Counted from the stretch's first letter, positions 11,528-28,339 are shown. The stretch: 50,782 nucleotides of DNA from Pseudomonadota bacterium (GCA_018241335.1 JAFEEA010000003.1:1-50782), one strand, 5' to 3'. Translations and numbers: made by a program. The notes: generated from the sequence alone by a model not told the origin.

Positions 11528-12025
11528 ATGCGCGCTGGCTGGGCTCTGCCGATGGCGCTGCTGGTTCTGGCCGGATGCGGCCGCGGCGGCGACACCTCCG
11601 GCGCGACGACCGCCGCCCCGACGAACCTGCCGACGGTTCGCTCGCCCGCCTACAAGGCTGACGGCGGGGCCGACGACTTCCACGGGACCGGCGTGATCTG
11701 CGACCTGACCAAGCCCTTCGTCATATCGGGCGGCGGGGTGACGGTGCGCTTTAGGCCCAAGGGGAACGGCGAGGGCGACTATGACTACGACGGCTCGCTG
11801 GAAGGGTTCGCCGTCTACGGCAAGGGGACCTTCAAGATCGCCCTGGCGCCCGACGGCTCGGGCGGCAAGATCAACGCCGAAGGGCCCGGCTCGGTGAAGA
11901 CGCCGATGGGCGTGCAGACCCGGCATGGCGAGGAGGTCTATACCCTGACCAAGGCCGAGCCCTGCGATCCGGCGACGCTGTCGCTGGGCGGCGCCGACAC
12001 AGCGGCGACACCGGCAAAGCCCTAG
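11528..12025 (+). CDS. Small lipoprotein of unknown function
   Basis: A 165-residue predicted lipoprotein. The signal peptide MRAGWALPMALLVLAGC ends in a good lipobox (LAGC), so the mature protein would start at C17 and be lipid-anchored. The mature part is Gly/Asp-rich with short alternating strands. No family could be named. The ATG at 11528 is preferred over an upstream GTG at 11510 because GGGGGG lies five bases before it and the signal peptide then begins correctly. Its TAG overlaps the TAG of the ceramide synthase gene on the other strand in a shared CTAG, so the two genes converge with overlapping ends. Whether it is tied to the neighbouring lipid locus is unknown. Confidence 0.8.
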   Translation: MRAGWALPMALLVLAGCGRGGDTSGATTAAPTNLPTVRSPAYKADGGADDFHGTGVICDLTKPFVISGGGVTVRFRPKGNGEGDYDYDGSLEGFAVYGKGTFKIALAPDGSGGKINAEGPGSVKTPMGVQTRHGEEVYTLTKAEPCDPATLSLGGADTAATPAKP

Positions 12026-13170
12026 CCGATCGCCTTCTCGTAGATGCGATAGGTCTTGTAGGGGACCGCCTGCAGGTTCTCCATGATGTGGTTCATGGGG
12101 CGATTGTCCTCCAGCACCCAGCCGCATTCGGTGTTGGTCATGCCGTACTTGACCGCCTGGTCGCGTAGCTCGCGGATGATGCGGAAGGGAGCCAGGATGC
12201 CGCGCGGGTCCTTGGCGAACTTGCGCTTGACCCCCATCAGCGGCACCCGGAAGCGCGGGATCTTGCCGACCTTCAGCCGCCACAGCAGCTTGGCCCAGCC
12301 GAACGGGAACAGCTTGCCGCCGAGGTCGCGGGCGATCCAGTTGAGGTCGGGCACCATCACCCCGAAGGCCGCGGGCTCGCCGTCGATCTCCATGAACCAG
12401 ATCAGCCGGTCCTTGAGGATGAACCCCAGGCTGTCCTTCATGTACTTGGTCTCGGATTCGGTGATCGGCACCGACTGCCAGTTGTCGGCCCAGGCGTCGT
12501 TGTAGATCTCGACCAGGGATTTGATGTCGCGCTCGAAGTTGTTCTTGTCGACCGGGCGGAACACGACCCCATCGCCCAGCGGCCGGGCCAGGCGCTTGTC
12601 CACCGCCTTGGGGAAGGTCGGCACGCCGGTGTACCAGGCAAGCAGGTCCTTGGCCTTGGCGTAGCCCAGGGCCTCGATCCGGCGGCCGACGAACGGCTGG
12701 TCGTGTGGCATCAGGAAGAACGACGGCGTGTCGAAGCCGTCGACCAGCAGGCCGGTCTCCTCGTTGATCGACAGGTTGAAGGGGCCCATGACGTGGGTCT
12801 TGCCGCGCGCCTTCAGCCAGGCCTCGGCGGTGGCGAATAGGGCCTGGAAGATGGCCGGATCGTCTTCGGCGCAGATCATGCCGAACTGGCCGGTGGGCTT
12901 GCCGGGTTCTTCGCGGCAGAGGCTGTCGATCTGGGCGCTGATGCGGCCGACATCCTGGCCGTCCCGCACGGCGAGCCAGAACTGCGCCTCGGCGTGCTCG
13001 AAGAACGGGTTGTGCTTGGGCGACAAGGCCTCGCGCCGTTCGAACAGCAGCGGGGCGATGTAGTTCGGATCGGCCGCGTTGATGCGCATGGGCACGCGGA
13101 TGAACCGCTCCAGCTCCGCCTGGCTGGAGACGGGAATGATCTTCAGGTCGCTCATGCCTTGGGTCGTCAT
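12022..13170 (-). CDS. bcerS: Bacterial ceramide synthase, GNAT-like N-acyltransferase
   Basis: A protein of about 382 residues resembling the bacterial ceramide synthase of Caulobacter, a GNAT-fold acyltransferase unrelated to eukaryotic Lag1 ceramide synthases and often mislabelled in databases. It would N-acylate 3-ketosphinganine or sphinganine from an acyl-CoA. Recognisable stretches are RVPMRINAADPNYIAPLL near the N-terminus, FGMICAEDDPAIFQAL, and GPFNLSINEETGLLVDGF. The start at 13170 is chosen because its ATG overlaps the TGA of the lptFG gene (ATGA), implying translational coupling. MSDLKII, 15 bases later, is an alternative. It is the last gene of the acpR-spt-lptFG-bcerS operon. 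The identification rests on recalled family resemblance and on context, not on a catalytic motif. Confidence 0.8.
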   Translation of the reverse strand: MTTQGMSDLKIIPVSSQAELERFIRVPMRINAADPNYIAPLLFERREALSPKHNPFFEHAEAQFWLAVRDGQDVGRISAQIDSLCREEPGKPTGQFGMICAEDDPAIFQALFATAEAWLKARGKTHVMGPFNLSINEETGLLVDGFDTPSFFLMPHDQPFVGRRIEALGYAKAKDLLAWYTGVPTFPKAVDKRLARPLGDGVVFRPVDKNNFERDIKSLVEIYNDAWADNWQSVPITESETKYMKDSLGFILKDRLIWFMEIDGEPAAFGVMVPDLNWIARDLGGKLFPFGWAKLLWRLKVGKIPRFRVPLMGVKRKFAKDPRGILAPFRIIRELRDQAVKYGMTNTECGWVLEDNRPMNHIMENLQAVPYKTYRIYEKAIG

Positions 13171-15452
13171 CCTTCCGCGTACAGCAGGATACTGAGGGCG
13201 CCGCAGCCGAAGGCCACGGGGGCGCCCCACGCCGCCGCCGCGGGCGGCAGCACGCCGGTCTGGCCCATGGCGGTCAGGAGCCCGTCCACCACCAGGTAGA
13301 ACAGGCCACCGCCGAGGCCGAAGATCACCGGCAGGGTGCGATTGCTGCGCGTGTGGCCCAACGCCGCTGGCAGGGCCAGCAGCAGCATGATCAGCGGCGC
13401 GAAGCCTTGGGCGATGGTGCGCTGGATGCGGGTCTGGAACTCGGCCGGGGCTCGGTTGAGGGGCTCGGTTCCCTTCAGCGCCTTGATGGCGTTGGCCGAG
13501 GAGATGTCGCTGGAGTCCGAGAACAGGCGCGCCGCGTCGCCGGCGCTGAGGGAGGTGGGCCAGTGCACGTCGCCGCCGGCTGTGACCACGGCGCGCTGCG
13601 GGCCCACGTCGGTGACCACGGCGTCGCGCATCTTCCAGCCGCCGACTTCGGGCGTCGCCGACTGGGCGGTCATGCGCCGCATCAGGGCCAGGTCGCCATC
13701 ACGCTGGTAGATGGTCAGGCCGGTCAGGGTGCGGCCGTCCGCGGTCGAGCCCTTGGCCACCACCAGGTCGCCGCCAATGCGGAACCAATGGGGCTCCGGT
13801 TCCTTCTTCTGGGCCGCCGGGGCGCTGGCGTTCCACCAGGTGGTCAGGGCCTGCTCGGCGCGCGGCGCCAGGGTCTCGGCGACCACCAGGTCCAGGGCCG
13901 CCACGGACAGGGCCACCGGCAGAGCGCGGCGGAAGATCTGGTAGAGCGACAGGCCCGTGGCGCGCATCGCCACCATCTCGCTGGTGGCGGCCAGCTGGTT
14001 GAAGGTGAAGAGGGCGCCGGCCAGGACCGCGAAGCCGGCGATCTGCTGGAACATGTCGGGCAGGCGAAGGGCCAGGTAGCGCAGGATCTCGATCGCCCCG
14101 CCCCGGTGCAGGATGTCGTTGGTCCGTTCCAGGAGGTCGATCAGCTGCAGGAGGCCAAGCAGGGCGCCGGCGGCCACCGCCGTGCGCACGGCGAAGATGC
14201 GGCTCATGTAGCCGGTGAGGCTCAGGCCGCCCCGCGATTGCATGGCCGTGGGCTTCACCTTCGAGCGCCGCTCGAAGAAGCCCTCGACGCGCATGAACAG
14301 GCCCGAGATCGGCGTCTCTCCCGGCCTCTTGCGGCTGGAGAAGAACATCCACAGGCAGAAGCCGACGAACACCAGGAACACCGTTCCCAGGATCAGCAGA
14401 GGCGGCGCCTTGCCGTTGCCGCCGAAGTTCTTGGCCAGGGTTACGCCATGGTGGAAGGCGACGAGGGCGACGGCGCCGACGATCATCCCCGGCGCGCGGC
14501 GACCGCGCTTGGCGGCCATGGCCAGGGGCAGGGCCAGGAACGGCAGGAAGGGGACGGCGAACGACCGGGTGAGGCGCGACAGCAGTTCCGACTCCAGGAC
14601 CGCGTGCGGGATCAGGGCGTCGCGGCGCGTCAGCTCTCGCACCAGCTCCGGCAGGGTCAGCTCCTGGGCGTCGCCGACGCCGCGTGGATCCAGCTTCTGG
14701 GCGCCGCCCAGGGTCTCGAAGTCGGTGACGTTGCCGAAGCGCAGCACGCGCGGGTCGCCGTGCGGCCCGTCCTCGTAGAGCACGCCGCCAGACAGGGTCA
14801 GCTCGGTGGTCTTGCCATCGGGCCGCAGGCCCAGGCGCCCGGACGTGGCGGTGACCAGGGTCTCGCCCGTCGGGGTGATCCGGCGGATGAAGACGCCCTT
14901 CATGTTGCGCCCGCTGGCGTCGACTTCGTCGGCCGTGATTGTGAAATCGGGCCCGGCGCTCATGAACACCTGGGGCTCGATCTGGGCCGTCCAGCCGGCG
15001 TCGAGGGCGGCGTTGCGCATGGCCCGGTAGGCGAAGCGGCTGTAGGGCTGCAGATAGCCGGTCAGCAGGATGCTCAGGATGCCCAGGATGACGCCCACGA
15101 AGACCAGGGGCGCCACCATCCGCTCGAACGAAACGCCGCCGGCCATGATGGCGTCGATCTCGGAGTCCTCGTCCATCCGGGCGACGACGATGAACATGGC
15201 TATGAAGAACGACGCCGGCAGCGCCAGGCCGAGGTGATAGGGCACCAGGTTGGTGATCAGCCCGGGCAGGAAGCCCAGATGCGCGCCATTGGCCGACAGC
15301 TCGCGGATCAGGCGAAGCGTCTGTTCCAGCAGGAAGGCGATCAGGGTCACCCCCAGCACGCCCACCGCCGGGCGCGCCAGGCTGCGCAGGACATAGCCGT
15401 CGATCAGCGACGGCCGCCAGGTGGACCTGTATCCAGCCAGGGCCGCGGCCAT
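13167..15452 (-). CDS. Fused LptF-LptG permease in ceramide operon
   Basis: A 761-residue membrane protein with two complete YjgP/YjgQ (LptF/LptG) units in tandem. Unit 1 spans about residues 15-375: paired N-terminal helices (VLGVTLIAFLLEQTLRL), a periplasmic jellyroll of about 150 residues, and three C-terminal helices. Unit 2 starts near residue 395 (LSLTGYMSRIF, with LQLIDLLERTNDIL) and repeats the same plan to the end. LptF and LptG normally form a heterodimer that, with the ATPase LptB, extracts LPS from the inner membrane. Here both halves are one chain. It lies 17 bases downstream of spt and overlaps bcerS by four bases, so it is made with the ceramide enzymes. Export of a sphingolipid is the natural inference. 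A housekeeping LptFG is expected elsewhere near lptD. The start ATG follows AGGGAG. Confidence 0.88.
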   Translation of the reverse strand: MAAALAGYRSTWRPSLIDGYVLRSLARPAVGVLGVTLIAFLLEQTLRLIRELSANGAHLGFLPGLITNLVPYHLGLALPASFFIAMFIVVARMDEDSEIDAIMAGGVSFERMVAPLVFVGVILGILSILLTGYLQPYSRFAYRAMRNAALDAGWTAQIEPQVFMSAGPDFTITADEVDASGRNMKGVFIRRITPTGETLVTATSGRLGLRPDGKTTELTLSGGVLYEDGPHGDPRVLRFGNVTDFETLGGAQKLDPRGVGDAQELTLPELVRELTRRDALIPHAVLESELLSRLTRSFAVPFLPFLALPLAMAAKRGRRAPGMIVGAVALVAFHHGVTLAKNFGGNGKAPPLLILGTVFLVFVGFCLWMFFSSRKRPGETPISGLFMRVEGFFERRSKVKPTAMQSRGGLSLTGYMSRIFAVRTAVAAGALLGLLQLIDLLERTNDILHRGGAIEILRYLALRLPDMFQQIAGFAVLAGALFTFNQLAATSEMVAMRATGLSLYQIFRRALPVALSVAALDLVVAETLAPRAEQALTTWWNASAPAAQKKEPEPHWFRIGGDLVVAKGSTADGRTLTGLTIYQRDGDLALMRRMTAQSATPEVGGWKMRDAVVTDVGPQRAVVTAGGDVHWPTSLSAGDAARLFSDSSDISSANAIKALKGTEPLNRAPAEFQTRIQRTIAQGFAPLIMLLLALPAALGHTRSNRTLPVIFGLGGGLFYLVVDGLLTAMGQTGVLPPAAAAWGAPVAFGCGALSILLYAEG

Positions 15453-15469: not shown

Positions 15470-16693
15470 TTAGCTGGCGGCGCCCACGCGCCGCTTGTCG
15501 GCGCTTAGCATGCCGAGCTGTCGACCCACATGCTCAAAAGCTTCCAGGGCGGTGTCGATCTGCTGGATCGTGTGCGCCGCGCTGACGGACGAGCGCAGCA
15601 GCGGGTTGTTGGTCGGGGTCGCCGGCGGCACCGCCAGGTTCAGATAGACGCCGGCGTCGAGCAGCATCTTCCAGAACGCGACGGCGATCTCCTGGTTGGG
15701 CATCACCGCGGCGACGATCGGATTGGCCTCCGGCCCGGTCTCGAAGCCGAGGGCGGTCAGGCCGTCGTGCAGACGCCGGGCGTTGCGCATCAGGTTGGCG
15801 CGCAGCTCGGGGCGAATCTGCATCTGGTGCAGCGCTTCCAGCGTCGAGGCGATCACGCCCGGCGGCAGGGAGGCAGTGAACATGTAGGGCCGGCTGACGA
15901 TGCGCATCACGTCGAAGTCGGGATTGTCCGACACGCAGAAGCCGCCGACGCTGCCCAGGCTCTTTGAGAAGGTGCCGACGATGAAGTCGACGTCGGCCTC
16001 GACGCCGGCCTGTTCGGCCAGGCCCCGGCCCGTCTCGCCCAGCACGCCCAGGGAGTGGGCCTCGTCGACCAGCAGGTAGGCGCCGGTCTCGCGCTTCACA
16101 TGGGCGATCTCCTTCAGCGGGGCGGTGTCGCCCAGCATGGAGTAGATGCCCTCCACCACGATCAGCTTGTCGCCGGGCACGCCTTCCAGGCGGCGCAGGC
16201 GCTTGTAGAGATCGTCGGGATTGTTGTGCCGGAAGCGGATCACCTCGGCCATGCCCAGGCGCGAGCCGTCGTAGATCGAGGCGTGGCTGTCGGCGTCAAG
16301 CATCAGGTGGTCGCCGCGGCCGACCAGGGTCGACAGTACGCCCAGATTGGCTTGGTAGCCGGTGGTGAACACCATGGCGTGCTGGCGGCCGTAGAACTTG
16401 GCCAGCTCCTGTTCCAGGCGCAGGTGGCCGTCATAGCTGCCGTTGGCGATGCGCGAGCCGGTGGTGCCGGTGCCCTGGTGCTTGGTCGCCTCGACGGACT
16501 TCTCGATGCACGCGGGATCGAAGGTCAGGCCCAGGTAGTTGTTGGTGCCCAAGAGGATGGTCTTCTTGCCGGCCAGCACGCCCTCTGTGGGCGACAGCAC
16601 GTCGTCGAAGCGGACGCTCAAGGGCTCGATGCCCATGTTCCGGACCATGTCGTAGGCCGTCTTGTACGCGGCGTGTTTGGCGAGAATCGTCAC
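15470..16693 (-). CDS. spt: Serine palmitoyltransferase
   Basis: A 407-residue alpha-oxoamine synthase that condenses L-serine with a long-chain acyl thioester to 3-ketosphinganine, the first step of sphingolipid synthesis. The PLP lysine is K244 in GTFSKSLGSVGG, the SPT form of the motif. D210-E211-A212-H213 and DADSHAS (H137) match cofactor contacts of the family. It is soluble, with no membrane anchor, as in other bacterial SPTs. It starts with GTG at 16693, two bases after the ACP stop, with an AGGGAG ribosome site inside the ACP gene. It is distinguished from KBL and BioF by its dedicated ACP upstream and by ceramide synthase, ceramide reductase and acyl-ACP synthetase neighbours. Confidence 0.93.
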   Translation of the reverse strand: MTILAKHAAYKTAYDMVRNMGIEPLSVRFDDVLSPTEGVLAGKKTILLGTNNYLGLTFDPACIEKSVEATKHQGTGTTGSRIANGSYDGHLRLEQELAKFYGRQHAMVFTTGYQANLGVLSTLVGRGDHLMLDADSHASIYDGSRLGMAEVIRFRHNNPDDLYKRLRRLEGVPGDKLIVVEGIYSMLGDTAPLKEIAHVKRETGAYLLVDEAHSLGVLGETGRGLAEQAGVEADVDFIVGTFSKSLGSVGGFCVSDNPDFDVMRIVSRPYMFTASLPPGVIASTLEALHQMQIRPELRANLMRNARRLHDGLTALGFETGPEANPIVAAVMPNQEIAVAFWKMLLDAGVYLNLAVPPATPTNNPLLRSSVSAAHTIQQIDTALEAFEHVGRQLGMLSADKRRVGAAS

Positions 16694-16695
16694 GC

Positions 16696-16947
16696 TCAGG
16701 CTCCCTTACGCAGCTCTTCCACCGCCCGGATCAGGTCCCCGACGGTTTGGACCTGTGTGATTCGATCCAGGGGAATCGAGATGTCGTAAAAGTCTTCAAT
16801 CGCCATGACGAAGTTCATCACTCCCAGGGAATCCATACCAAGGTCTTCGACGATGTCGGTGTCGTCGGTGATCTCCACCGGACGATTGAGGACCTGCTCG
16901 AATATCGAGGCAATATCGTCACGCATGGATCGATGAGAGACGTCCAT
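16696..16947 (-). CDS. acpR: Acyl carrier protein of the ceramide pathway
   Basis: An acyl carrier protein of about 83 residues with S in LGMDSLGVMN as the phosphopantetheine site. It lies two bases upstream of spt, as in Caulobacter, where a dedicated ACP delivers the acyl chain to serine palmitoyltransferase after loading by an acyl-ACP synthetase (encoded at 18065-19762). The start is uncertain: the ATG at 16947 (MDVSHRS) and the ATG at 16926 (MRDDIAS) both lack a clear ribosome site, and an open frame continues upstream to 17061 without ACP-like sequence. A 160-base gap separates it from cerR, so it may head its own transcript. A TTGACA on the minus strand at 16968-16963 lies near the proposed start but has no clear partner. 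Confidence 0.88.
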   Translation of the reverse strand: MDVSHRSMRDDIASIFEQVLNRPVEITDDTDIVEDLGMDSLGVMNFVMAIEDFYDISIPLDRITQVQTVGDLIRAVEELRKGA

Positions 16948-17107
16948 CTCGGAGCCAACCACTGTCAATTGATGATGTCCCCGCATCCCGCGAATCTGTA
17001 TGCACCGCTTCGCGGACGAAGCCCCGACCCCACCGTTACAGGTTTGCGAATTGCCCTTCAACTGCGGCGGAAAGTGGCCGAGGGGCCCGCCGGCCCGCCG
17101 TGACCCC

Positions 17108-18046
17108 TCATTTCAGCCAGCCCGCGGCCCTGTACCAGGCCACCGCGTCGGCGAACCCGGCCTCGAGGTCGAACCGCGCAGGTGGGGCGCCGGGCGCCTG
17201 CTCCCTGGGCGACACCGACCAGTCCGGATGCAGAAGTTCGCGCGCCTTGCCCCTGGAGAAGATGACCGGTTGGCCGGTGATCCTGCCGGTCGCCTCCGAC
17301 GCGGCGCCGGCGGCGCGCAGCAGCCAGGGGGCGATGGGCATGAGGTCGGCGCGCCGGCCCAGGACCTTGCCGGCGGTCTCGAAGATGTCTCGCCAGGCGT
17401 AGCCTTCCGGCCTCGCCCCGCCCACGGCCCAGGTCCCGGGCGTCGGCTGGTCGGCCAGCAGGGCGGCCACCGCGCAGACGTCGTCGACATGCGCCAGGGC
17501 CAGGCGCGCGCGCGCATCGCCGGGTAGAGGCAGCAGGCTCGACCGGGCCGCGAGCCTAAACAACGCAAGGGTTTCCTGATCGCCGGGCCCATAGATCGCC
17601 GGCGGGCGCAGCACGCTCAAGGCGTCGCCGACGACCGCCTGGGCCGCCGCCTCGCCGGCCGCCTTGCTGGCCGCGTAGTCGCTCAAGGCCGGCTCGCGGG
17701 CCGCAAGGCTGGAGACCAGCAGCAGGCGCGACCCGGCCGCCCGGGCCGCCGAGGCGACCGCCGCCGAGCCGGCCTCGTTGACCGCCTTGAAGGCGGCGCG
17801 ATCGCGCGCCTTGACCAGGCCGGCCGCATGAATGACCAGGTCCGCGCCCGCGGCGAGGCGCGACAGGGCGTCCCGGTCCTCCAGGTCCCCGCGCACGATG
17901 TCCGGCGCGGCGTCGCCCCAGAGACCAGCTTCCGGCGCCCGCCGCGAGAGCACGCGCACGCGCCAGCCGCGCCGCGCCAGGTCGGGAACCAGCCGTCGTC
18001 CGAGGAAGCCGGTGGCGCCCGTCACCGCGGCCAGGCGGCCGGTCAA
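17108..18046 (-). CDS. cerR: NAD-dependent epimerase/reductase, likely ceramide reductase
   Basis: A 312-residue extended short-chain dehydrogenase. The nucleotide-binding motif is GATGFLG (G10, G13, G16) and the catalytic pair is Y124-K128 in YAASK, with serines at 112-113. In Caulobacter the equivalent gene next to spt encodes the enzyme that reduces the 3-keto group of the (N-acylated) sphingoid base. The position here, between aasR and acpR-spt, is the same. It starts with TTG at 18046 after a weak GGGAAA site, 18 bases downstream of the aasR stop, so the two are co-transcribed. Other members of the family act on nucleotide sugars; the gene order is the main reason for the ceramide assignment. 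Confidence 0.85.
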   Translation of the reverse strand: MTGRLAAVTGATGFLGRRLVPDLARRGWRVRVLSRRAPEAGLWGDAAPDIVRGDLEDRDALSRLAAGADLVIHAAGLVKARDRAAFKAVNEAGSAAVASAARAAGSRLLLVSSLAAREPALSDYAASKAAGEAAAQAVVGDALSVLRPPAIYGPGDQETLALFRLAARSSLLPLPGDARARLALAHVDDVCAVAALLADQPTPGTWAVGGARPEGYAWRDIFETAGKVLGRRADLMPIAPWLLRAAGAASEATGRITGQPVIFSRGKARELLHPDWSVSPREQAPGAPPARFDLEAGFADAVAWYRAAGWLK

Positions 18047-18064: not shown

Positions 18065-19762
18065 TCAGGCCGTGAGGCTGACGGGCGCCTCTTCGAACGC
18101 ACCCTCGAGATAGAGGGCCCGGGCGCGCGAGCGGCTGAGCTTGCCCGACGACGTTTCCGGCAGGCTGCGCGGCGGCGCCAGCACCACCTGCACGTCCAGG
18201 CCATGGCGCACGCGCAGCAGCTTGGCGACCTCGTCGCGCAGGGCTTCGCGGGCGGCGGGATCGCTCAGGCGGCACTGCACCAGGGCGATGACCGTCTCTT
18301 CCAGTTCGCCGGTGATCGAGAACACGGCGACGTCGCCCTGGCGCAGGGCGGCGATCTCCTTCTCGGCGGTCCACTCCAGGTCCTGCGGCCAGACATTGCG
18401 GCCGTTGACGATGATCAGGTCCTTGGCGCGGCCGGTGATGACGATCTGGCCGTCGACGAAGTAGCCGAGATCGCCGGTATCCAGCCAGCCGTCGGCCGAC
18501 AGCACCTTGGCGGTCTCTTCCGGCTCGCCGAAGTAGGTCTTCATCAGGCTGGGGCCACGGGCGAAGATGCGGCCGACGCGGCGCTCGGGCAGCACGTGGC
18601 CGGCGGCGTCGCGCACCTCGATCACATGGTCGGGCAGCACGCGGCCGCAGAGGGCGAACTCGCGGTCGCGCGCGCCGCGCTTGGACGGCTTGATGGCCAG
18701 GCCTTCGCGCTCCAGGCGGTCGATGTCGGTGTGGTCGGTGCGCAGGCCCTCGCCCACGGGCGTCAATGTCAGGGCCAGGGTCGCCTCGGCCATGCCATAG
18801 CTGGCGTTGAAGGCGCCCGGATCGAAGCCGACCGGGGCGAAGGCCTCTGCGAAGGCCCGCAGGGGTTCGGGTCGGATCATGTCGCCGCCGAGGCCCGCCA
18901 CCCGCCAGGTCGACAGATCCAGGTCGCTCACCTTGCCGGCCAGGGCGCGCTTGGCGACCAGGTCATAGCCGAATGTCGGCGCGTAGGAGACTGACGCCCG
19001 GTGCTTGGAGATCAGGTCCAGCCAGACGCCGGGCCGGCGCACGAAGGCGCCCGTGGGCAGCAGGTCCAGAGAACCCTGGCAAAGGACGGTGGTCATCAGG
19101 ACGCCCACCAGGCCCATGTCGTGATAGAGCGGCAGCCACGAGACACCGCGGTCGGTCAGGCCGAGGTTCAGCCCATGCGGCCCCGCGATGCCCGAGACGT
19201 TGGCGTTCAGCGCCGCCTGGGTGACCGCCACACCGAGGGGGAAGCGGGTGCTGCCCGACGAGAACTGCAGGTAGCAGAGACCTTCCGGATCCGGGGTCGG
19301 CAATTGCGTTTCGGTCGCCTGGGGCAAGGCGCCGTAGCCCCCGGCGTAGGCCAGGCCCAGGCCATCGGCGGCGTCGGCGTACCACTCGGCCAGGGACTGC
19401 GGCGCGAACGCGGCCCGCGCCCCCGAGGCCTGCAGCATGCGCCGCACGTGGGCCAGGTAAGGCTCCTTGCCACCCAGCAGCGAGGGCAGGGGCAGGGGCG
19501 CGGGCACCAGGCCGGCGTATTGGCAGGCGAAGAAAGCCCTCAGGAAATCGGCGTCGCTCTCGGCGGCCAGGGCCACGCGGTCGCCGGGCTCCAGCCCCGC
19601 GCCCAGTAGCCGGCCGGCCATGGCGCGCGCCTCGTCACGCAGCCGCCCGTAGTCCAGGACCTCCGCCAGCTCCCCGCGCAGAGAGTAGACATTGATCCCC
19701 GTGGGCATGTCGCCGGCGTAGTCCAGGGCCTCGGCGATCGTCGGCTGGGCCGCGATAAGCAT
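18065..19762 (-). CDS. aasR: Fatty acyl-AMP ligase / acyl-ACP synthetase of the ceramide pathway
   Basis: An ANL-superfamily enzyme of about 565 residues, of the fatty acyl-AMP ligase type. Landmarks are the phosphate-binding loop FSSGSTRFPLG, YGMAEATLALT, the hinge region WLDTGDLGYF followed by GRAKDLIIVNGRNVWPQD, and the C-terminal lysine in ETSSGKLSRS. It would activate a fatty acid with ATP and load it onto the ACP encoded downstream for serine palmitoyltransferase. The ATG at 19762 (MLIAAQPT) is preferred, with GGAAC upstream; an in-frame extension to 19849 is Pro/Arg-rich and unlike the family. It heads the minus-strand array and diverges from the ABC exporter gene. Confidence 0.87.
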   Translation of the reverse strand: MLIAAQPTIAEALDYAGDMPTGINVYSLRGELAEVLDYGRLRDEARAMAGRLLGAGLEPGDRVALAAESDADFLRAFFACQYAGLVPAPLPLPSLLGGKEPYLAHVRRMLQASGARAAFAPQSLAEWYADAADGLGLAYAGGYGALPQATETQLPTPDPEGLCYLQFSSGSTRFPLGVAVTQAALNANVSGIAGPHGLNLGLTDRGVSWLPLYHDMGLVGVLMTTVLCQGSLDLLPTGAFVRRPGVWLDLISKHRASVSYAPTFGYDLVAKRALAGKVSDLDLSTWRVAGLGGDMIRPEPLRAFAEAFAPVGFDPGAFNASYGMAEATLALTLTPVGEGLRTDHTDIDRLEREGLAIKPSKRGARDREFALCGRVLPDHVIEVRDAAGHVLPERRVGRIFARGPSLMKTYFGEPEETAKVLSADGWLDTGDLGYFVDGQIVITGRAKDLIIVNGRNVWPQDLEWTAEKEIAALRQGDVAVFSITGELEETVIALVQCRLSDPAAREALRDEVAKLLRVRHGLDVQVVLAPPRSLPETSSGKLSRSRARALYLEGAFEEAPVSLTA

Positions 19763-19956
19763 GCGCCGTTCCGGCGCCGTGGGCGTGGGATTCAAAACCG
19801 ACCGTCCAATAGTGACCCTCCGGGGGGATGGCGAACACGCGCTGATCATGGCATGCGCCGCGGGGTGACGTCATTATGACAACGCGCGCCGCGCTGATAG
19901 CCCGTATGTTGCGATCTGCGGCGTCTTGGCCTCTCTGCGCTTGATATGGAGCACGA

Positions 19957-21825
<1,869 letters not shown>

Positions 21826-21846: not shown

Positions 21847-22773
21847 TCAGCCCGCGAACCGCGCCACCAGACCCCGGTTCCTCACCGCTCTCGCCGCCAG
21901 CACCGCCAGCAGCACGCCGTTCAGCACCGTGATCTCGTAGATGAAGAACCAGGCTGGATGCTTCACCAGCACCGCCACGAAGGCGGCCAGGGTGCGGCTG
22001 TTGGAACTCAGCAGGCCCGAGCGCTTGACGATGAAGACATGGGCGCGGCGGTAGGCCTCGCGAACGGCCGAGGCGGCGTCGCCACCCTCGGCCAGTTTCG
22101 GCTCCAGCACCTGTTCCAACCGCGTCTCGCCCGGAGCCATCAGTTTGGAGAGGCCGATGTAGAGCCCGCCCAGCAGGCGCTGGAAGATGTTGCCGCCCTG
22201 GCTCTGGGTCTGGCGCATCCAGGCCGCGCCGTAGACCCAGCGGCGATAGGTTTTGCGCCCGGTCTCATAGCCGTTGGCCTGGATGAAGTGGCTGGCGGCG
22301 GCCGCCAGCGCCAGCTCCACCGCGCCGGCGGCGCCCATGTTTCGCGCGACGATCCAGCCCAGGCCCACATAGACGCAGGCCTGGCTGGCATGATCGCAGA
22401 CACCGTCCACAAGTTCGCCGATCGGCGAGGCGCGGCCGGTGCGCCGGGCGAGGTCGCCATCCGCGCCGTCCAGCACGTGCCAGGCGATCAGCAGCAGCAG
22501 GCCGGCGAAGGCCGAGACCGGCCAGGGCAGGGCGGCGAAGCTGGCCGCGCCGGCGGCGGCGAAGAACACCGACGCCACGGAGACCTGGTTCGGCGTGATC
22601 GCCGTCTTCGCCAGCACGTCCACGACCCGACGCGAAATGGGGTGGATCAGCCAGACGTTGGTCACGCCTTCGATCTCGTTGGGACGTCCCGGCGCCTGGC
22701 CGGAGGGCGGCGCCGCTGGCGAAGCGCTGGCGCCTTCTGAAACCTCAGGTGATGAAGAACCACTTGATTTCAT
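21847..22773 (-). CDS. CDP-alcohol phosphatidyltransferase family membrane enzyme
   Basis: A membrane enzyme of about 308 residues with the complete CDP-alcohol phosphotransferase motif. In the stretch LDGADGDLARRTG the spacing DxxDGxxAR is exact, and it is followed by G, D and D at the canonical distances (GELVDGVCD). Five or six hydrophobic segments are visible. The N-terminal WLIHPISRRVV...TAITPNQVSV pattern resembles the inositol-phosphate-phosphotransferase half of bifunctional IPCT-DIPPS enzymes. The enzyme transfers a phospho-alcohol from a CDP-activated donor to an alcohol acceptor. The gene facing it encodes an inositol-phosphate-cytidylyltransferase-like protein that could make the donor. 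The start is uncertain: ATG at 22773 (AAGGA too far upstream) or TTG at 22827 in the same frame. The acceptor, perhaps ceramide or diacylglycerol, is inferred from context only. Confidence 0.87.
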   Translation of the reverse strand: MKSSGSSSPEVSEGASASPAAPPSGQAPGRPNEIEGVTNVWLIHPISRRVVDVLAKTAITPNQVSVASVFFAAAGAASFAALPWPVSAFAGLLLLIAWHVLDGADGDLARRTGRASPIGELVDGVCDHASQACVYVGLGWIVARNMGAAGAVELALAAAASHFIQANGYETGRKTYRRWVYGAAWMRQTQSQGGNIFQRLLGGLYIGLSKLMAPGETRLEQVLEPKLAEGGDAASAVREAYRRAHVFIVKRSGLLSSNSRTLAAFVAVLVKHPAWFFIYEITVLNGVLLAVLAARAVRNRGLVARFAG

Positions 22774-22834
22774 GGCCGGGTTTGGGTCCTTAAGCGCCTT
22801 CGCGCGCGTGCTTATCTTGTCCGCCAAAGGACCA

Positions 22835-22846
22835 GACGCTAGCGTC
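22835..22846. promoter_or_regulatory. 12-bp perfect palindrome between divergent head-group genes
   Basis: GACGCTAGCGTC is a perfect 12-bp palindrome in the gap between the divergent CDP-alcohol phosphotransferase and nucleotidyltransferase genes. Its position suits an operator acting on both. No regulator gene is adjacent, and a single short palindrome in GC-rich DNA can arise by chance. Confidence 0.3.
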
Positions 22847-22931
22847 CTCGCGTCCCCGGGCGCTCACATTCGACCGTGACAATGGGCGTCTCGGCCGGCC
22901 CTCTCGCTTTCAGTCCCTGAACGGAAACCTC

Positions 22932-23723
22932 ATGGCCAACAAGACCCGCGCGGCGACCATCGGCGTTGGCGACAGCGATGAGGCGCAGCGGATGACGGGC
23001 GGCGGGGCGAACGTCAAGGGCCTGATCGTCGCCGCCGGCCAGGGCCTGCGCATCCGCGACATCGCGCTCTCCAAGCCCCTGGCCGAGGTGCGCGGCGTGG
23101 CCCTGATCGAACGGGTCATCGAGAGCGCCCATGCGGCGGGCCTGCGCGAGTTCGTGGTGGTCACGGGATACGAGGCCGAGCGGGTCGAGGCCTTCCTGCG
23201 GGACCTGTCGGCGCGCCGGGGGATCAAGATCGAGACGGTGCGCAATCCCGACTGGCACAAGTCCAACGGCCTCTCGGTCGCCGCAGCCGAGGCCCTGCTG
23301 GGCCAATATTTCGTGCTGATGATGTCGGACCACCTGTTCGATCCGCAGATCCTGTCGGCCCTTCTGGAGACGGCGCCGGACGCGAAAGGCGTGACCCTGG
23401 CGATCGACCGGCGCCTGGACAACGAACTGGTCGACCTGGAGGACGTCACCCGCGTGGCCACCGACGCCGATGGCCGCATCGTTGGGATCGGCAAGATGAT
23501 CGAGACCTACGACTGCTTCGACACCGGTATTTTCCTGGCTTCCAAGGCCCTGATCGAGGCTGTGCGCGAGGACGTGGCGGGCGGCGGCGCGGGCAGCATC
23601 TCGGCCGGCATGCAGCTCCTGGCGGGCCGCGGCCACGCCCGTGTGTTCGATATCGGCGACCGCTTCTGGCTGGACGTCGACGACAAGGTCGCCTTCGGCC
23701 ACGCGGAGCAGGCGGCGGCCTGA
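22932..23723 (+). CDS. Sugar-phosphate nucleotidyltransferase, inositol-1-phosphate cytidylyltransferase-like
   Basis: A 263-residue NTP-transferase. After a 28-residue leader it has KGLIVAAGQGLRIRD, the NTP-binding loop, then KPLAEVRGVALIERVI and FVVVTGYEAERVEAFL. NPDWHKSNGLSVAAAE and MMSDHLFDP (metal-binding SDH) follow, then VDLEDVTRV and YDCFDTGIFLAS. This succession closely follows the cytidylyltransferase half of inositol-1-phosphate cytidylyltransferase/di-myo-inositol-phosphate enzymes, not the MobA or glucose-1-phosphate groups. The expected reaction is CTP plus a polyol phosphate to a CDP-polyol. In IPCT-DIPPS it is fused to a CDP-alcohol phosphotransferase; here that partner is the divergent neighbour. 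The ATG at 22932 follows GGAAA. Activation of glycerol- or choline-phosphate remains possible. Confidence 0.83.
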   Translation: MANKTRAATIGVGDSDEAQRMTGGGANVKGLIVAAGQGLRIRDIALSKPLAEVRGVALIERVIESAHAAGLREFVVVTGYEAERVEAFLRDLSARRGIKIETVRNPDWHKSNGLSVAAAEALLGQYFVLMMSDHLFDPQILSALLETAPDAKGVTLAIDRRLDNELVDLEDVTRVATDADGRIVGIGKMIETYDCFDTGIFLASKALIEAVREDVAGGGAGSISAGMQLLAGRGHARVFDIGDRFWLDVDDKVAFGHAEQAAA

Positions 23724-24759: not shown

Positions 24760-26037
24760 CTACTCCGCGGCGATCGGCTCGCCGACCAGGGGCATGGGGT
24801 AGGGTTCGCGGGCGGGGTCGATGGCCATGGCCTGCTCGATGAACAGGGAGGAGTAGCGCTCCACCATCTTGTCGATGTCGAACTCCTCGGCGCGGATGCG
24901 GCCATTGCGCGAGAATTCCTCGCGCAGGGCGCGGTTCTCCAGCAGGTGGTCCATGGCGGCGCTGAACGCCTCAAGGTTCTCCGGCGGAACGACCCAGCCG
25001 CTCTTGCCGTCCTCGACCACCTCGGCGGGGCCGAAGTCGCAGGAGGTGACCAGGGCCGGCGTGCCGCAGGCCAGCGCCTCGGCCACCACGCTGGGGAAGC
25101 CCTCCCAGCGCGAGGGCAGGACGAAAAGCGTGCTGCGGGCCATCCAGGCCCAGGGGTTGGCCACCCAGCCAGGGAACTTGACCCGGTCGGCGACGCCGAG
25201 CTCGGCGGCCAGCGCCTTGGTCTCCGCGTCCATGCTGCCGCGGCCGATGATCACCAGGTCGTACCCCTTGGCCGCCTCGCTGGCGGCGAAGGCGCGCAGC
25301 AGGAGGTCATGGTTCTTCTGGTATTCGAGCCGGCCGACGGTGAGGATGAACGGCCGCTCCGGCGTCTCGACGCTTTCGCGCGACAGCTTGCGGATCTTGT
25401 TCAGGTCGATCGGGTTGTGGATCACGCGCACGCGCTCGGGATCCAGCTCCAGCCGCGCTTGAAGCCCGGCAGCCATCTCGTGCGAATTGGCCAGGAAGCA
25501 GTCGGCGGCCCGATAGGCCTTGCGGGTCAGGGTCTTGATCGCCCGCCGCGCCAGGCTGTTCTGCAGCTCGTTCTCGATCACCGCGTCGGTGTTGTTGCCT
25601 TCGCGCACGATCCAGCGGGGCCGTTGCGCGCCCATGCTCGCCACCACCGGCCCGGTGATGACGTTCATGCCTTTCAGGAAGCTCATCACCACGTGTGGGC
25701 GATGCGCCTTGATCATCTGGCGCAGGTTCACCGGCGCCAGGACCGCCGCGGCGGCCAGTTTGTGGGGCCGGTAGAAGGTGGAGTTGGCCCCCTCGAAGGC
25801 CAGCAGGTTCTGGCCGAAGGGCGAGACGTCGATGCGGCTCTCGTCGGCGTCGGCCAGGAACGGGCCCGAGCGGTGCAGCAGGCCCATGCGCACATCGACC
25901 AGCTTGGGGTCGCAACGATTGAGCAGATGCACGGCGACGCGCTCGGCCCCGCCGCCATGCAGCGAGGAGAGCAACAGCATCACACGCACCGGCGGGGCGG
26001 GCGTGCTATCGATCACGGTGGCGAATCCGTCCCCCAT
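24760..26037 (-). CDS. Glycosyltransferase family 4
   Basis: A 425-residue GT-B retaining glycosyltransferase. The N-terminal half opens with MLLLSSLHGGGAERVAVHLL, the acceptor-side glycine loop typical of GT4. The C-terminal half has ILTVGRLEYQKNHDLLL and the donor-binding EX7E region PSRWEGFPSVVAEALACG. No transmembrane segment is present, so it acts at the cytoplasmic membrane face. It heads an operon with asparaginase and diverges from the phospholipase D-like gene. Its place beside ceramide and CDP-alcohol genes suggests it could add a sugar to a lipid head group. A role in polysaccharide synthesis is equally possible. The donor cannot be read from the sequence. Confidence 0.9.
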   Translation of the reverse strand: MGDGFATVIDSTPAPPVRVMLLLSSLHGGGAERVAVHLLNRCDPKLVDVRMGLLHRSGPFLADADESRIDVSPFGQNLLAFEGANSTFYRPHKLAAAAVLAPVNLRQMIKAHRPHVVMSFLKGMNVITGPVVASMGAQRPRWIVREGNNTDAVIENELQNSLARRAIKTLTRKAYRAADCFLANSHEMAAGLQARLELDPERVRVIHNPIDLNKIRKLSRESVETPERPFILTVGRLEYQKNHDLLLRAFAASEAAKGYDLVIIGRGSMDAETKALAAELGVADRVKFPGWVANPWAWMARSTLFVLPSRWEGFPSVVAEALACGTPALVTSCDFGPAEVVEDGKSGWVVPPENLEAFSAAMDHLLENRALREEFSRNGRIRAEEFDIDKMVERYSSLFIEQAMAIDPAREPYPMPLVGEPIAAE

Positions 26038-26110
26038 CGGGCGCTTCTTAGCCGCGGCTCGCGGCGAGCGGCAACCCGAGCGGGCCGCTTCGCGCGGGTT
26101 GGAGGGCGGT

Positions 26111-27226
26111 TTGGTTCATTTCGAGCTCTTGGTTGGGGCGGACGCCTTCTGGAAGCGCGCGGCGAAGGATTTCGCTCAATCCCGACGCCGCCTGTTCGTG
26201 CAGGCGATGACGTTCGAGGGAGATTCGGCGGGATTGGCGGTGGCGGCGGCGATCAAGGCCAGCCCGGCGGGTGACCGGCGCGTCCTGGTGGACGAATACA
26301 CACGGCACGTGATCAGCGACCGCTCCGTTCACGCAAAAGCCTCCAAAGCCGACCAGGACTTCCAGAGCGAGGTCCGCGCCACCCACGCCATGTTCAGCGG
26401 CCTCGTAGACGGCGGAGTTTGCGTTCGCGTGACAAACCCCGTCGGCCCACTCTTTACCCGGTATCCGGCCCGCAATCACAAGAAACTGATTGTCGCGGAC
26501 GACGCGGCCTATATCGGCGGCGTCAATTTCAGCGACCACAACTTCGCCTGGCACGATTTCATGCTGAGGATCGAGGGCGCGGATCTGGCCGAGGCCTGCG
26601 CCGAGGACTTCATCGCCACCTTCGAGGGGCGTCCTCGCGCCAGCAACGCCGAGTTCGGCCCGGTGCGGCTGATTTCCATGGATGGTCGCAGCAACCGCGC
26701 CGCCTTCGCCGAGATCATGGCCCTGATCGAGGGCGCGCGCCGGTCGGTGACGATCATCAGCCCCTACCTGACCTTCCCGGTCACGGGCGCCCTGGCGCAG
26801 GCGCGCCGGCGCGGGGTCGCGGTGGAGCTGATCACCCCGCTGGCCAACAACAAGCGCCTGGTGCGCGACTACCTGCTGTGGGCGGCCAAGGCGGGCGGGC
26901 TGGACGTGCGGCTGCAGCCGCACATGTCCCACCTCAAGGGCATGCTGATCGACGACGAGCGGCTGGTGATCGGCTCGTCCAACTTCGACTTCGTCAGCCT
27001 GGGCGCCGAGGAGGAGCTGGTGGCGGTGATCGCCGATCCGCGCGTGATCGCCGACTTCCGCGCCGCCGTGATCGACCCGGCCGTGGCCGAGGCGTTGCCC
27101 GCGTCGGCCCACACGCCCTCGACCCTGGCCGGTCTCCTCAGCCTGGCGCAGCTCAAGTTCGCGCAAGGCGTCGTCGGCGCCGTTCGCGGCGTTCCGCGCG
27201 GAGCCTACGACTACCCCGCGGGGTGA
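26111..27226 (+). CDS. Phospholipase D / cardiolipin synthase-like protein
   Basis: A 371-residue protein of the phospholipase D superfamily with two intact HKD motifs: H123-K125-D130 in RNHKKLIVAD followed by GGVNFSDHN, and H274-K276-D281 in SHLKGMLID followed by GSSNFD. Two motifs in one chain give a full active site. Members hydrolyse or transfer phosphatidyl groups (cardiolipin synthase, phosphatidyltransferase). No N-terminal membrane helices are present, unlike classical ClsA. The start is a TTG at 26111, because GGAGG lies five bases upstream and sequence before it is not protein-like. It diverges from the glycosyltransferase gene. It may remodel phospholipid or sphingolipid head groups (inference). 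Confidence 0.88.
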   Translation: MVHFELLVGADAFWKRAAKDFAQSRRRLFVQAMTFEGDSAGLAVAAAIKASPAGDRRVLVDEYTRHVISDRSVHAKASKADQDFQSEVRATHAMFSGLVDGGVCVRVTNPVGPLFTRYPARNHKKLIVADDAAYIGGVNFSDHNFAWHDFMLRIEGADLAEACAEDFIATFEGRPRASNAEFGPVRLISMDGRSNRAAFAEIMALIEGARRSVTIISPYLTFPVTGALAQARRRGVAVELITPLANNKRLVRDYLLWAAKAGGLDVRLQPHMSHLKGMLIDDERLVIGSSNFDFVSLGAEEELVAVIADPRVIADFRAAVIDPAVAEALPASAHTPSTLAGLLSLAQLKFAQGVVGAVRGVPRGAYDYPAG

Positions 27227-27256: not shown

Positions 27257-28246
27257 TCAGGCGGCGGCCGGCTGGCCGTGGGCGACCGGCATCGGCGTCT
27301 TGGCCGGCTTCTGGCCGCCACGCCAGGCGTCCAGGAAGCTGGCCTGGTGGACACAGCTGACCGTGCAGTAGGGCGCGCAGCTCTTGGCGGTGGAATATTC
27401 GCGGACGATGTCGGCGGTGGTGTAGTCGGCCAGCGGGATGCCGGGGCTGCCGCGCTGCTGCGAGCAGTAGTGCACCAGGCCGTCCTCGCAGATGTAGAGA
27501 TAGCGTGCGCCGGCCCGACAGCGCCAGGCGTTGGGCTGTCCCGCCATCAGGTTCTTCTGGAACATCAGATAGTTGATCTGATGAACGATGGACCGCTTGT
27601 CGGTCAGCTTGTCGTAGACGGCGCGCTGGGTATCCGAGAGGGGGGCCAGGGTGCCCTCTGCGTCGTGCAACACGCCCACCGTATGGCTGAAGCCCAGGGC
27701 CTTGGCGGTCTCGGCCACCTCGAGGGCGTCCTGGGTGCGTTCCTCGGTGATGCCCAGGACCGAGTTGATGTTGACGTGGAACTTGGCGTGCTCGGACAGC
27801 AGCTTCAGGCGGCCCATCAGCGACTTCAGGGTCTTCTTGGAGACCTCGTCCGGCTTCACCCCGTCGATGGAGATCTGCAGCTCCTGCAGGCCCGCCTCGT
27901 TCATGCCCTCGATCGACTTCTTGGTCATCAGGAAGCCGTTGGTGATGGTGGTGGCGACCATGCCGTGGCCGCGGATACGGCGGATGACGTCCTCGTGGCC
28001 CGGATGGGTCATGGGCTCGCCCCCGGTCAGGGTGACGATCTGGGCGCCCAGGGCCGCCAGGCGGTCGACCCGCTCCAGCAGCAGCTCCAACGGCACCGGC
28101 TTGGAGACCTTGTCGTACTCGCTGCAATAGGCGCAATCGAGGTTGCAGTAGCGGGTCACCACCAGGTGGGCCAGCATCGGCTTGCGGGTCGACAGCAGCA
28201 CATTGGCGGCGACCTTCAGCCCGTCCCGCAACGTCACACCCGCCAT
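27257..28246 (-). CDS. Radical SAM / SPASM domain protein
   Basis: A radical SAM enzyme of about 329 residues. The [4Fe-4S] motif is CNLDCAYC (C34, C38, C41), followed by the SAM-contacting TLTGGEP. A C-terminal cysteine cluster (CRAGARYLYICEDG, YCSQQRG, CAPYCTVSC) is typical of SPASM/Twitch auxiliary-cluster domains. Such proteins mature peptides, activate enzymes such as sulfatases, or modify small molecules. An anaerobic sulfatase-maturating role could serve the window's sulfatase, but that gene is 25 kb away and a Cys-type sulfatase in an aerobe would normally use FGE. No short precursor peptide gene is adjacent. Start: ATG at 28246 with GGGGA upstream; the ATG at 28297 lacks a ribosome site. 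Confidence 0.87.
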   Translation of the reverse strand: MAGVTLRDGLKVAANVLLSTRKPMLAHLVVTRYCNLDCAYCSEYDKVSKPVPLELLLERVDRLAALGAQIVTLTGGEPMTHPGHEDVIRRIRGHGMVATTITNGFLMTKKSIEGMNEAGLQELQISIDGVKPDEVSKKTLKSLMGRLKLLSEHAKFHVNINSVLGITEERTQDALEVAETAKALGFSHTVGVLHDAEGTLAPLSDTQRAVYDKLTDKRSIVHQINYLMFQKNLMAGQPNAWRCRAGARYLYICEDGLVHYCSQQRGSPGIPLADYTTADIVREYSTAKSCAPYCTVSCVHQASFLDAWRGGQKPAKTPMPVAHGQPAAA

Positions 28247-28339
28247 TGTCCGGATATCCCCAACCGTCTCTCGCGAAGGCCCTAGATGGGCCTTCAATGC
28301 GCCGATGTCACGTGCTGCGCTGCAACAGAAGCCGCCAAA

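Follow-up and report, generated by a model that had tools for sequence, protein, structure and literature searches.

The window, a 50 782-nucleotide stretch of DNA from a Caulobacteraceae bacterium, contains two adjacent genes for a predicted nucleotidyltransferase and a predicted CDP-alcohol phosphotransferase (PT), which raises the question of what head group their products might build and on which acceptor. A preliminary description, made from the sequence alone, had proposed that the pair could form a module making a phosphoinositol (or other phospho-polyol) lipid with ceramide or diacylglycerol as acceptor, possibly further glycosylated. As judged by sequence comparison, the two genes probably encode the enzymes that activate the head group of an inositol phosphoceramide and transfer it to the lipid.

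Genetic organization of the locus

The nucleotidyltransferase gene (positions 22932–23723, plus strand) encodes a protein of 263 aa, whose catalytic domain begins at about residue 27 (PF12804, 2.2e-14). The PT gene (21847–22827, minus strand) encodes a protein of 326 aa as listed, with a match to PF01066 above the cut-off (4.3e-9). Both genes are real, with open ORFs of full length at these coordinates, in agreement with the preliminary description. The latter correctly recognized the genes as split and divergent but was wrong in calling them “facing”, since it is their 5′ ends that are adjacent. Comparison with homologues indicated that the true start of PT is probably the ATG of residue 19 (approx. 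position 22773), which places approx. 158 bp between the two gene starts. This short intergenic region (22774–22931) may, from its coordinates, serve as a shared promoter region.

One flank of the pair is occupied by genes predicted to be involved in lipid export and ceramide synthesis. An MsbA-related ABC exporter (19957–21825, plus strand; TIGR02204, 714 bits, under the model cut-off of 780) is the counterpart of the potential flippase CC_1166; its homologues located near the pair are 60–71% identical in four Caulobacteraceae genomes and 48% identical in a fifth. It is followed, on the minus strand, by (i) aasR, encoding an acyl-ACP synthetase for sphingolipid synthesis (18065–19849; NF006624, over the cut-off), (ii) a cerR-like gene for an NAD-dependent reductase (17108–18046; assigned from PF01370 and its position in the cluster), (iii) acpR, an open frame for a dedicated acyl carrier protein, kept beside spt in relatives (16696–17061), (iv) spt, encoding serine palmitoyltransferase (SPT) (15470–16693; NF047599, 673 bits versus a cut-off of 500), (v) lptF2 and lptG2 (13167–15452; open frame of 761 aa), proposed to act in sphingolipid transport to the outer membrane, and (vi) a gene for a cerS-like N-acyltransferase (12022–13230), which had no match in Pfam or NCBIfam and has 53–54% identical homologues in the sphingolipid loci of relatives. 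The lptF and lptG sequences form a single ORF in the window and are separate genes in relatives, e.g. G021 and G033 (loci L061 and L062).

The other flank contains genes for a GT4 glycosyltransferase (24760–26037, minus strand; PF00534, 3.6e-46), which adjoins the pair in close relatives and might glycosylate the head group, a PLD-like enzyme of the cardiolipin-synthase superfamily (25895–27226, plus strand; PF13091, 1.6e-25) and a radical SAM protein (27257–28297, minus strand; PF04055). The neighbourhood thus agrees with the preliminary description, which had named ceramide synthesis, an exporter, a GT4 and a PLD-like enzyme. The radical SAM gene recurs near these clusters: homologues of 51–59% identity are encoded close to the cassette in loci of Azospirillaceae, Acetobacteraceae and other alphaproteobacteria, among them those of Nitrospirillum, Azospirillum, Gluconacetobacter and Rhizomicrobium, and the homologue in a close relative (L069) is 79% identical. 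An asparaginase gene was noted in addition.

The nucleotidyltransferase and its link to Ino1

The best PDB sequence matches of the nucleotidyltransferase were 2xme, 4mnd and 4jd0 (E 1.8e-19 to 1.9e-15), followed by MurU (1.6e-8); the entry of the Caulobacter enzyme CpgD was not among the matches at the default threshold. The AlphaFold model of the protein (pLDDT 90.5) gave 4jd0 as the top fold match (2.8e-20), followed by 4mnd and 2xme. By sequence and by fold, the nearest solved structures are those of CTP:inositol-1-phosphate cytidylyltransferases (IPCTs), and not those of another substrate class. The protein has a MobA-like nucleotidyltransferase fold and retains the active-site residues Arg, Lys and Asp, which as R40, K48 and D133 are the same in all of 14 homologues compared; the DTG motif of IPCTs is likewise invariant. 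Its closest characterized relatives are IPCTs. The window proteins had also been described as matching the two halves of bifunctional IPCT-DIPPS enzymes. Separate parts of the corresponding model (NF041135, 419 residues) were indeed matched, the nucleotidyltransferase covering positions 2–213 and PT positions 236–343, but the scores (107.9 and 31.1 bits, respectively) are far under the cut-off of 580, and two genes are involved rather than one protein. The match to the IPCT fold is by itself not decisive, because CpgD, which makes CDP-glycerate, is also structurally nearest to 4jd0 (PMC12275187).

The distribution of Ino1 (myo-inositol-1-phosphate synthase) was more informative as to the substrate. 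In a sample of 79 related genomes, nine carry a gene closely orthologous to that of the window (E <1e-48), and Ino1 was found in all of them, compared to 14 of 79 overall (Fisher P = 1e-8). In a class-wide sample of 385 genomes, in which the enzyme was counted at E <1e-30, 12 of 13 enzyme-bearing genomes contain Ino1, compared to 36 of 385 overall (Fisher 8e-13); these counts and tests take related genomes as independent. The two genes are also physically linked, Ino1 being located within approx. 1 kb of the enzyme gene in five genomes (G003, G005, G008, G013 and G023). In G013, which belongs to the same genus as the window genome, an Ino1-IPCT fusion of 604 aa gives Pfam matches to both Ino1 and NTP transferase, and a similar but incomplete copy is present in G008. 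Fusions of Ino1 with IPCT were also identified in other alphaproteobacterial families (L112/L150, L152, L159 and L160), and IPCT-PT fusions in L117, L151, L153, L154 and L158, as well as in L146 from Latescibacterota.

Two other arrangements were observed among these loci. In G008 (L046:252–2995) a second copy of the 3′ end of the IPCT gene lies at positions 2906–2995, behind an interposed dehydrogenase-like frame; the arrangement resembles the outcome of an insertion that duplicated this end. In L142–L147 (Latescibacterota and one Gemmatimonadota) IPCT is part of frames of 484–600 aa, and the neighbouring genes include one that is flippase-like and one that is CpgA-like.

The window enzyme itself carries an apparent trace of such a fusion. 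Ahead of the enzyme domain the protein starts with MANKTRAATIGVG-DSDEAQRMT, and these first 22 residues (positions 22932–22997, plus strand) correspond to both ends of Ino1: residues 4–13 (KTRAATIGVG) align with the Ino1 start in relatives (KIRAAIVGVG), and residues 16–22 (DEAQRMT) are identical to the Ino1 end in the fusion protein. When shuffled versions of each half were scored against the Ino1 sequences of close relatives, no more than 0.1% equalled the score of the real sequence. The model predicts it to be disordered, residues 1–25 lying outside the enzyme domain with pLDDT <50. The simplest reading of this sequence is that an Ino1-IPCT fusion lost its Ino1 part by in-frame deletion, with the two Ino1 ends persisting as a scar; misassembly is a possible source.

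For the inositol-phosphate source that the preliminary description had proposed to look for, the genome contains a candidate, an Ino1 gene truncated at a contig end and belonging to a different subfamily. This gene, the only Ino1 match in the genome (G000), starts at the edge of contig C70 and resembles the fused, cassette-type Ino1 at E 1e-7 at best. It adjoins an integrase-like gene, its GC content (62.6%) is below the 68–72% found otherwise, and its tetranucleotide make-up deviates. Since it combines another subfamily, truncation at the contig end, an integrase-like neighbour and low GC content, this Ino1 may be a replacement, a recent transfer or a contaminant. A homologue of 46% identity is present in another genus of the family. 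Besides its Ino1-IPCT fusion, the same-genus genome G013 contains a 74-residue fragment (L178:3950–4690) that is 64% identical to the C70 Ino1, and this is the only close match to the C70 type among same-genus genomes.

Taken together, the sequence data support the assignment of the nucleotidyltransferase as a CTP:inositol-1-phosphate cytidylyltransferase linked to Ino1, and the case for inositol is stronger than could be seen when the preliminary description was made.

The phosphotransferase and its acceptor

PT contains the motif of the CDP-alcohol phosphotransferase superfamily (DxxDGxxAR(8-9)GxxxDxxxD). The motif is complete (D-GA-DG-DL-AR-(8)-G-ELV-D-GVC-D) and invariant or nearly so in 10 homologues, so that the catalytic motifs of both proteins are intact, as previously noted. 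The best fold match of the PT model is AF2299 (4o6m), followed by PIP synthases, CEPT1 and the Archaeoglobus fulgidus IPCT-DIPPS (4mnd); matches of the model to this range of folds leave the acceptor unfixed. Comparative sequence evidence, such as the IPCT-PT fusions, supports PT as the partner of the IPCT.

The genomic context bears on the acceptor. SPT is encoded by all nine related genomes with a close orthologue, compared to 31 of the 79 overall (Fisher 1e-4), and by 17 of 20 genomes picked from named loci. SPT was lacking in two Latescibacterota genomes and one Gemmatimonadota genome; the L142–L147 group was represented by L145 and L147, both without SPT. In Acidocella, Nitrospirillum and other alphaproteobacteria, Ino1, IPCT and PT are located between cerS-cerR-aasR and acpR-spt, with lptF and lptG in the same cluster. 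Of 80 named loci, 26 combine Ino1, PT and a ceramide gene. The cassettes of Robiginitomaculum, Kordiimonadaceae and Emcibacteraceae, by contrast, had no ceramide gene over a distance of approx. 10 kb, although SPT is present in those of the genomes that were tested. Nitrospirillum viridazoti (L086; G461:C3:1170743–1181350) contains two SPT genes approx. 8 kb apart at the cassette locus.

The preliminary description had regarded wide occurrence of the pair in genomes lacking sphingolipids and inositol as an argument against its proposal. Such occurrence was not seen among close relatives, as all nine close-orthologue genomes contain both SPT and Ino1, but class-wide only four of the 13 enzyme-bearing genomes have SPT (P = 0.07) and nine lack it. 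The notion that the cassette always accompanies sphingolipids was dropped on this account. Since there are Ino1-bearing genomes without SPT, divergent members of the PT family would serve some other acceptor or product, and the data speak more strongly for the CDP-inositol chemistry (Ino1 in 12 of 13 genomes) than for a link to sphingolipids in every case.

For the window enzyme, ceramide is favoured because SPT is present in all nine related genomes and the cassette is located inside ceramide clusters, and we consider it the likely acceptor. PT is accordingly proposed to be a CDP-inositol:ceramide phosphoinositol transferase. In the resulting pathway, Ino1 would convert glucose-6-phosphate into inositol-1-phosphate, which the nucleotidyltransferase (22932–23723) would combine with CTP to give CDP-inositol and pyrophosphate. 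The membrane-bound PT (21847–22827) would then displace CMP and place phosphoinositol on the primary hydroxyl of, presumably, a ceramide supplied by the adjacent spt, cerR and cerS genes. The MsbA-like exporter might flip the lipid, and the dedicated LptFG might move it on towards the outside. In this genome, from which the fused Ino1 domain was apparently deleted, a different Ino1 gene would have to supply the substrate.

Diacylglycerol, a less likely acceptor, would be used in a Kennedy-like reaction giving phosphatidylinositol, any inositol ceramide being formed later by exchange. This order of reactions has been proposed, and is unconfirmed, for Bacteroidetes (Heaver 2022, PMC9246714); the occurrence of divergent IPCT and PT homologues in genomes without SPT and the resemblance of PT to other lipid CDP-alcohol transferases, including CEPT1, are consistent with it. 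However, in the clade of the window enzyme the cassette lies amid ceramide genes and SPT is present in every related genome that carries it, and a Pfam scan of the neighbours revealed no HAD-hydrolase gene among the adjacent genes. We therefore give this order of reactions a minor share of the probability, and diacylglycerol itself is clearly the less probable acceptor of PT.

The phosphoinositol ceramide might be modified further, as suggested by neighbouring genes in other genera. In Acidocella (L078:15859–17720 and L078:7539–8528) a GT4 gene and a PIG-L-family deacetylase gene directly follow spt, and a PF04488 glycosyltransferase gene precedes Ino1. A GT4 gene and a PIG-L-family (GlcNAc-PI de-N-acetylase) gene also follow spt in Nitrospirillum and several other genomes, and a PF04488 gene is located just ahead of Ino1 in many loci. 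Since these genes accompany the cassette, a glycosylated inositol phosphoceramide is suggested for Acidocella, Nitrospirillum and these other genomes. The window GT4 is 32% identical to the Acidocella GT4 encoded after spt and could possibly glycosylate the product; no match to the Acidocella PIG-L-family or PF04488 proteins was found in the window. The product of Ino1 is 1L-myo-inositol-1-phosphate, so that a head group borne by CDP-inositol should be linked via the position enantiotopic to that of eukaryotic inositol phosphoceramide (IPC). A wider, tentative proposal, which we regard as doubtful, is that many Alphaproteobacteria make glycosylated inositol phosphoceramides, counterparts of plant and fungal GIPC, by an independently evolved route: transfer from CDP-inositol to ceramide, followed by sugar addition and deacetylation by GT4, PIG-L and PF04488 enzymes, the inositol being linked via the position phosphorylated by Ino1, with stereochemistry opposite to that of eukaryotic IPC.

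Comparison with known systems

The system most similar in genetic setting is that of Caulobacter crescentus, in which CpgD (CCNA_01210/CC_1152) and CpgA (CC_1159) belong to like enzyme classes, are encoded in a like ceramide locus and are proposed to act through a CDP-activated head group (PMC12275187, PMC11324152). The window locus mirrors that of Caulobacter, and orthology with CpgD and CpgA, the pair then making a ceramide phosphoglycerate head group, was our first hypothesis. The locus type, the two enzyme classes, the CDP-alcohol-type domain of CpgA and the structural nearness of CpgD to the IMPCT 4jd0 all agree with it. The orthology was rejected on the basis of phylogeny, substrate-site residues, the absence of CpgB and CpgC, and the linkage to Ino1. 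The identity of the window enzyme to CpgD-type proteins is only approx. 30–36%, and in the tree the latter are set apart as a separate clade by a long branch (100/100, branch 2.75). In CpgD, glycerate is contacted by N110 and, via water, by S170, with M147 packing above it (PMC13228409). These residues are kept in CpgD-type proteins, whereas in the window protein N110 is replaced by M131 and S170 by D197, and there is no Met at the position of M147. The partners of CpgD, which forms CDP-glycerate, are CpgB (a ceramide kinase) and CpgC. CpgC was absent from all six IPCT-type Caulobacteraceae genomes tested (including that of the window) and present in 3/3 of the CpgD type; CpgB was clear in the latter three and gave no match in the former six, save one weak partial match (E 9.6e-6) in a related genome. 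The Cpg system also lacks an Ino1 link: the three Caulobacteraceae genomes whose loci contain a CpgD-type protein near cerS (G021, G028 and G033) have no Ino1, in contrast to the Ino1 fusions and Ino1 relic of the IPCT type. A phosphoglycerate product is thus very improbable, and from these comparisons it appears that loci of this kind carry either the CpgA–D or the IPCT cassette.

The nearest structures are those of the A. fulgidus IPCT/DIPPS (2xme, 4mnd) and the Thermotoga maritima IMPCT (4jd0), which share the Arg, Lys and Asp residues and the DTG motif with the window enzyme and are 26–28% identical to it in structural alignment. In A. fulgidus both activities reside in one protein and serve a soluble solute, whereas in the window they are encoded by separate genes in a ceramide locus. 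Synthesis of the soluble compatible solute di-myo-inositol phosphate by the window pair is hardly to be expected, since, despite the matches of both proteins to parts of the bifunctional model and the IPCT-PT fusions of other alphaproteobacteria, the scores are far below the NF041135 cut-off, the surrounding genes are those of ceramide synthesis and lipid export, and the known producers of this solute are mostly thermophiles.

In the open-access literature, to which the search was confined, the cassette was not described in Proteobacteria and the CDP-inositol route to lipids was shown in no bacterium. If the proposed pathway is right, it shows at the level of genes how Proteobacteria could make inositol sphingolipids and offers a system in which the unproven CDP-inositol route to lipids can be studied; it would also point to head-group cassettes being exchangeable at the ceramide locus of Caulobacteraceae, for phosphoglycerate in Caulobacter and for phosphoinositol in the window genome. 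The cassette is directly testable in cultured, named hosts such as Acidocella facilis, Gluconacetobacter diazotrophicus and Nitrospirillum. A lipid fragmenting like phosphoinositol dihydroceramide has been reported from Novosphingobium acidiphilum, in which no matching cluster was recognized (PMC9246714).

Phosphoinositol dihydroceramide is also made by Bacteroides thetaiotaomicron (BT_1522–1526), where the pathway does not involve CDP-inositol but runs via a PIP intermediate, with a synthase of the CDP-diacylglycerol type and an AUR1-like transferase (PMC9246714). A closer parallel is the putative alternative cluster of Bacteroides vulgatus and Prevotella, which likewise comprises MIPS, an NTP transferase presumed to make CDP-inositol and a CDP-alcohol phosphatidyltransferase (Heaver 2022, PMC9246714). 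The window genes do not belong to this cluster, as Ino1 is not adjacent and no HAD protein is encoded among the scanned neighbours; in relatives, the genes for MIPS, the NTP transferase and PT do cluster. The Bacteroidetes route, so far untested and described for Bacteroidetes only, is predicted to proceed via diacylglycerol with a HAD hydrolase, whereas the alphaproteobacterial cassette is linked directly to ceramide genes. The CDP-inositol lipid route itself was thus already predicted for Bacteroidetes, and the ceramide-linked cassette of Alphaproteobacteria would be a variant of it.
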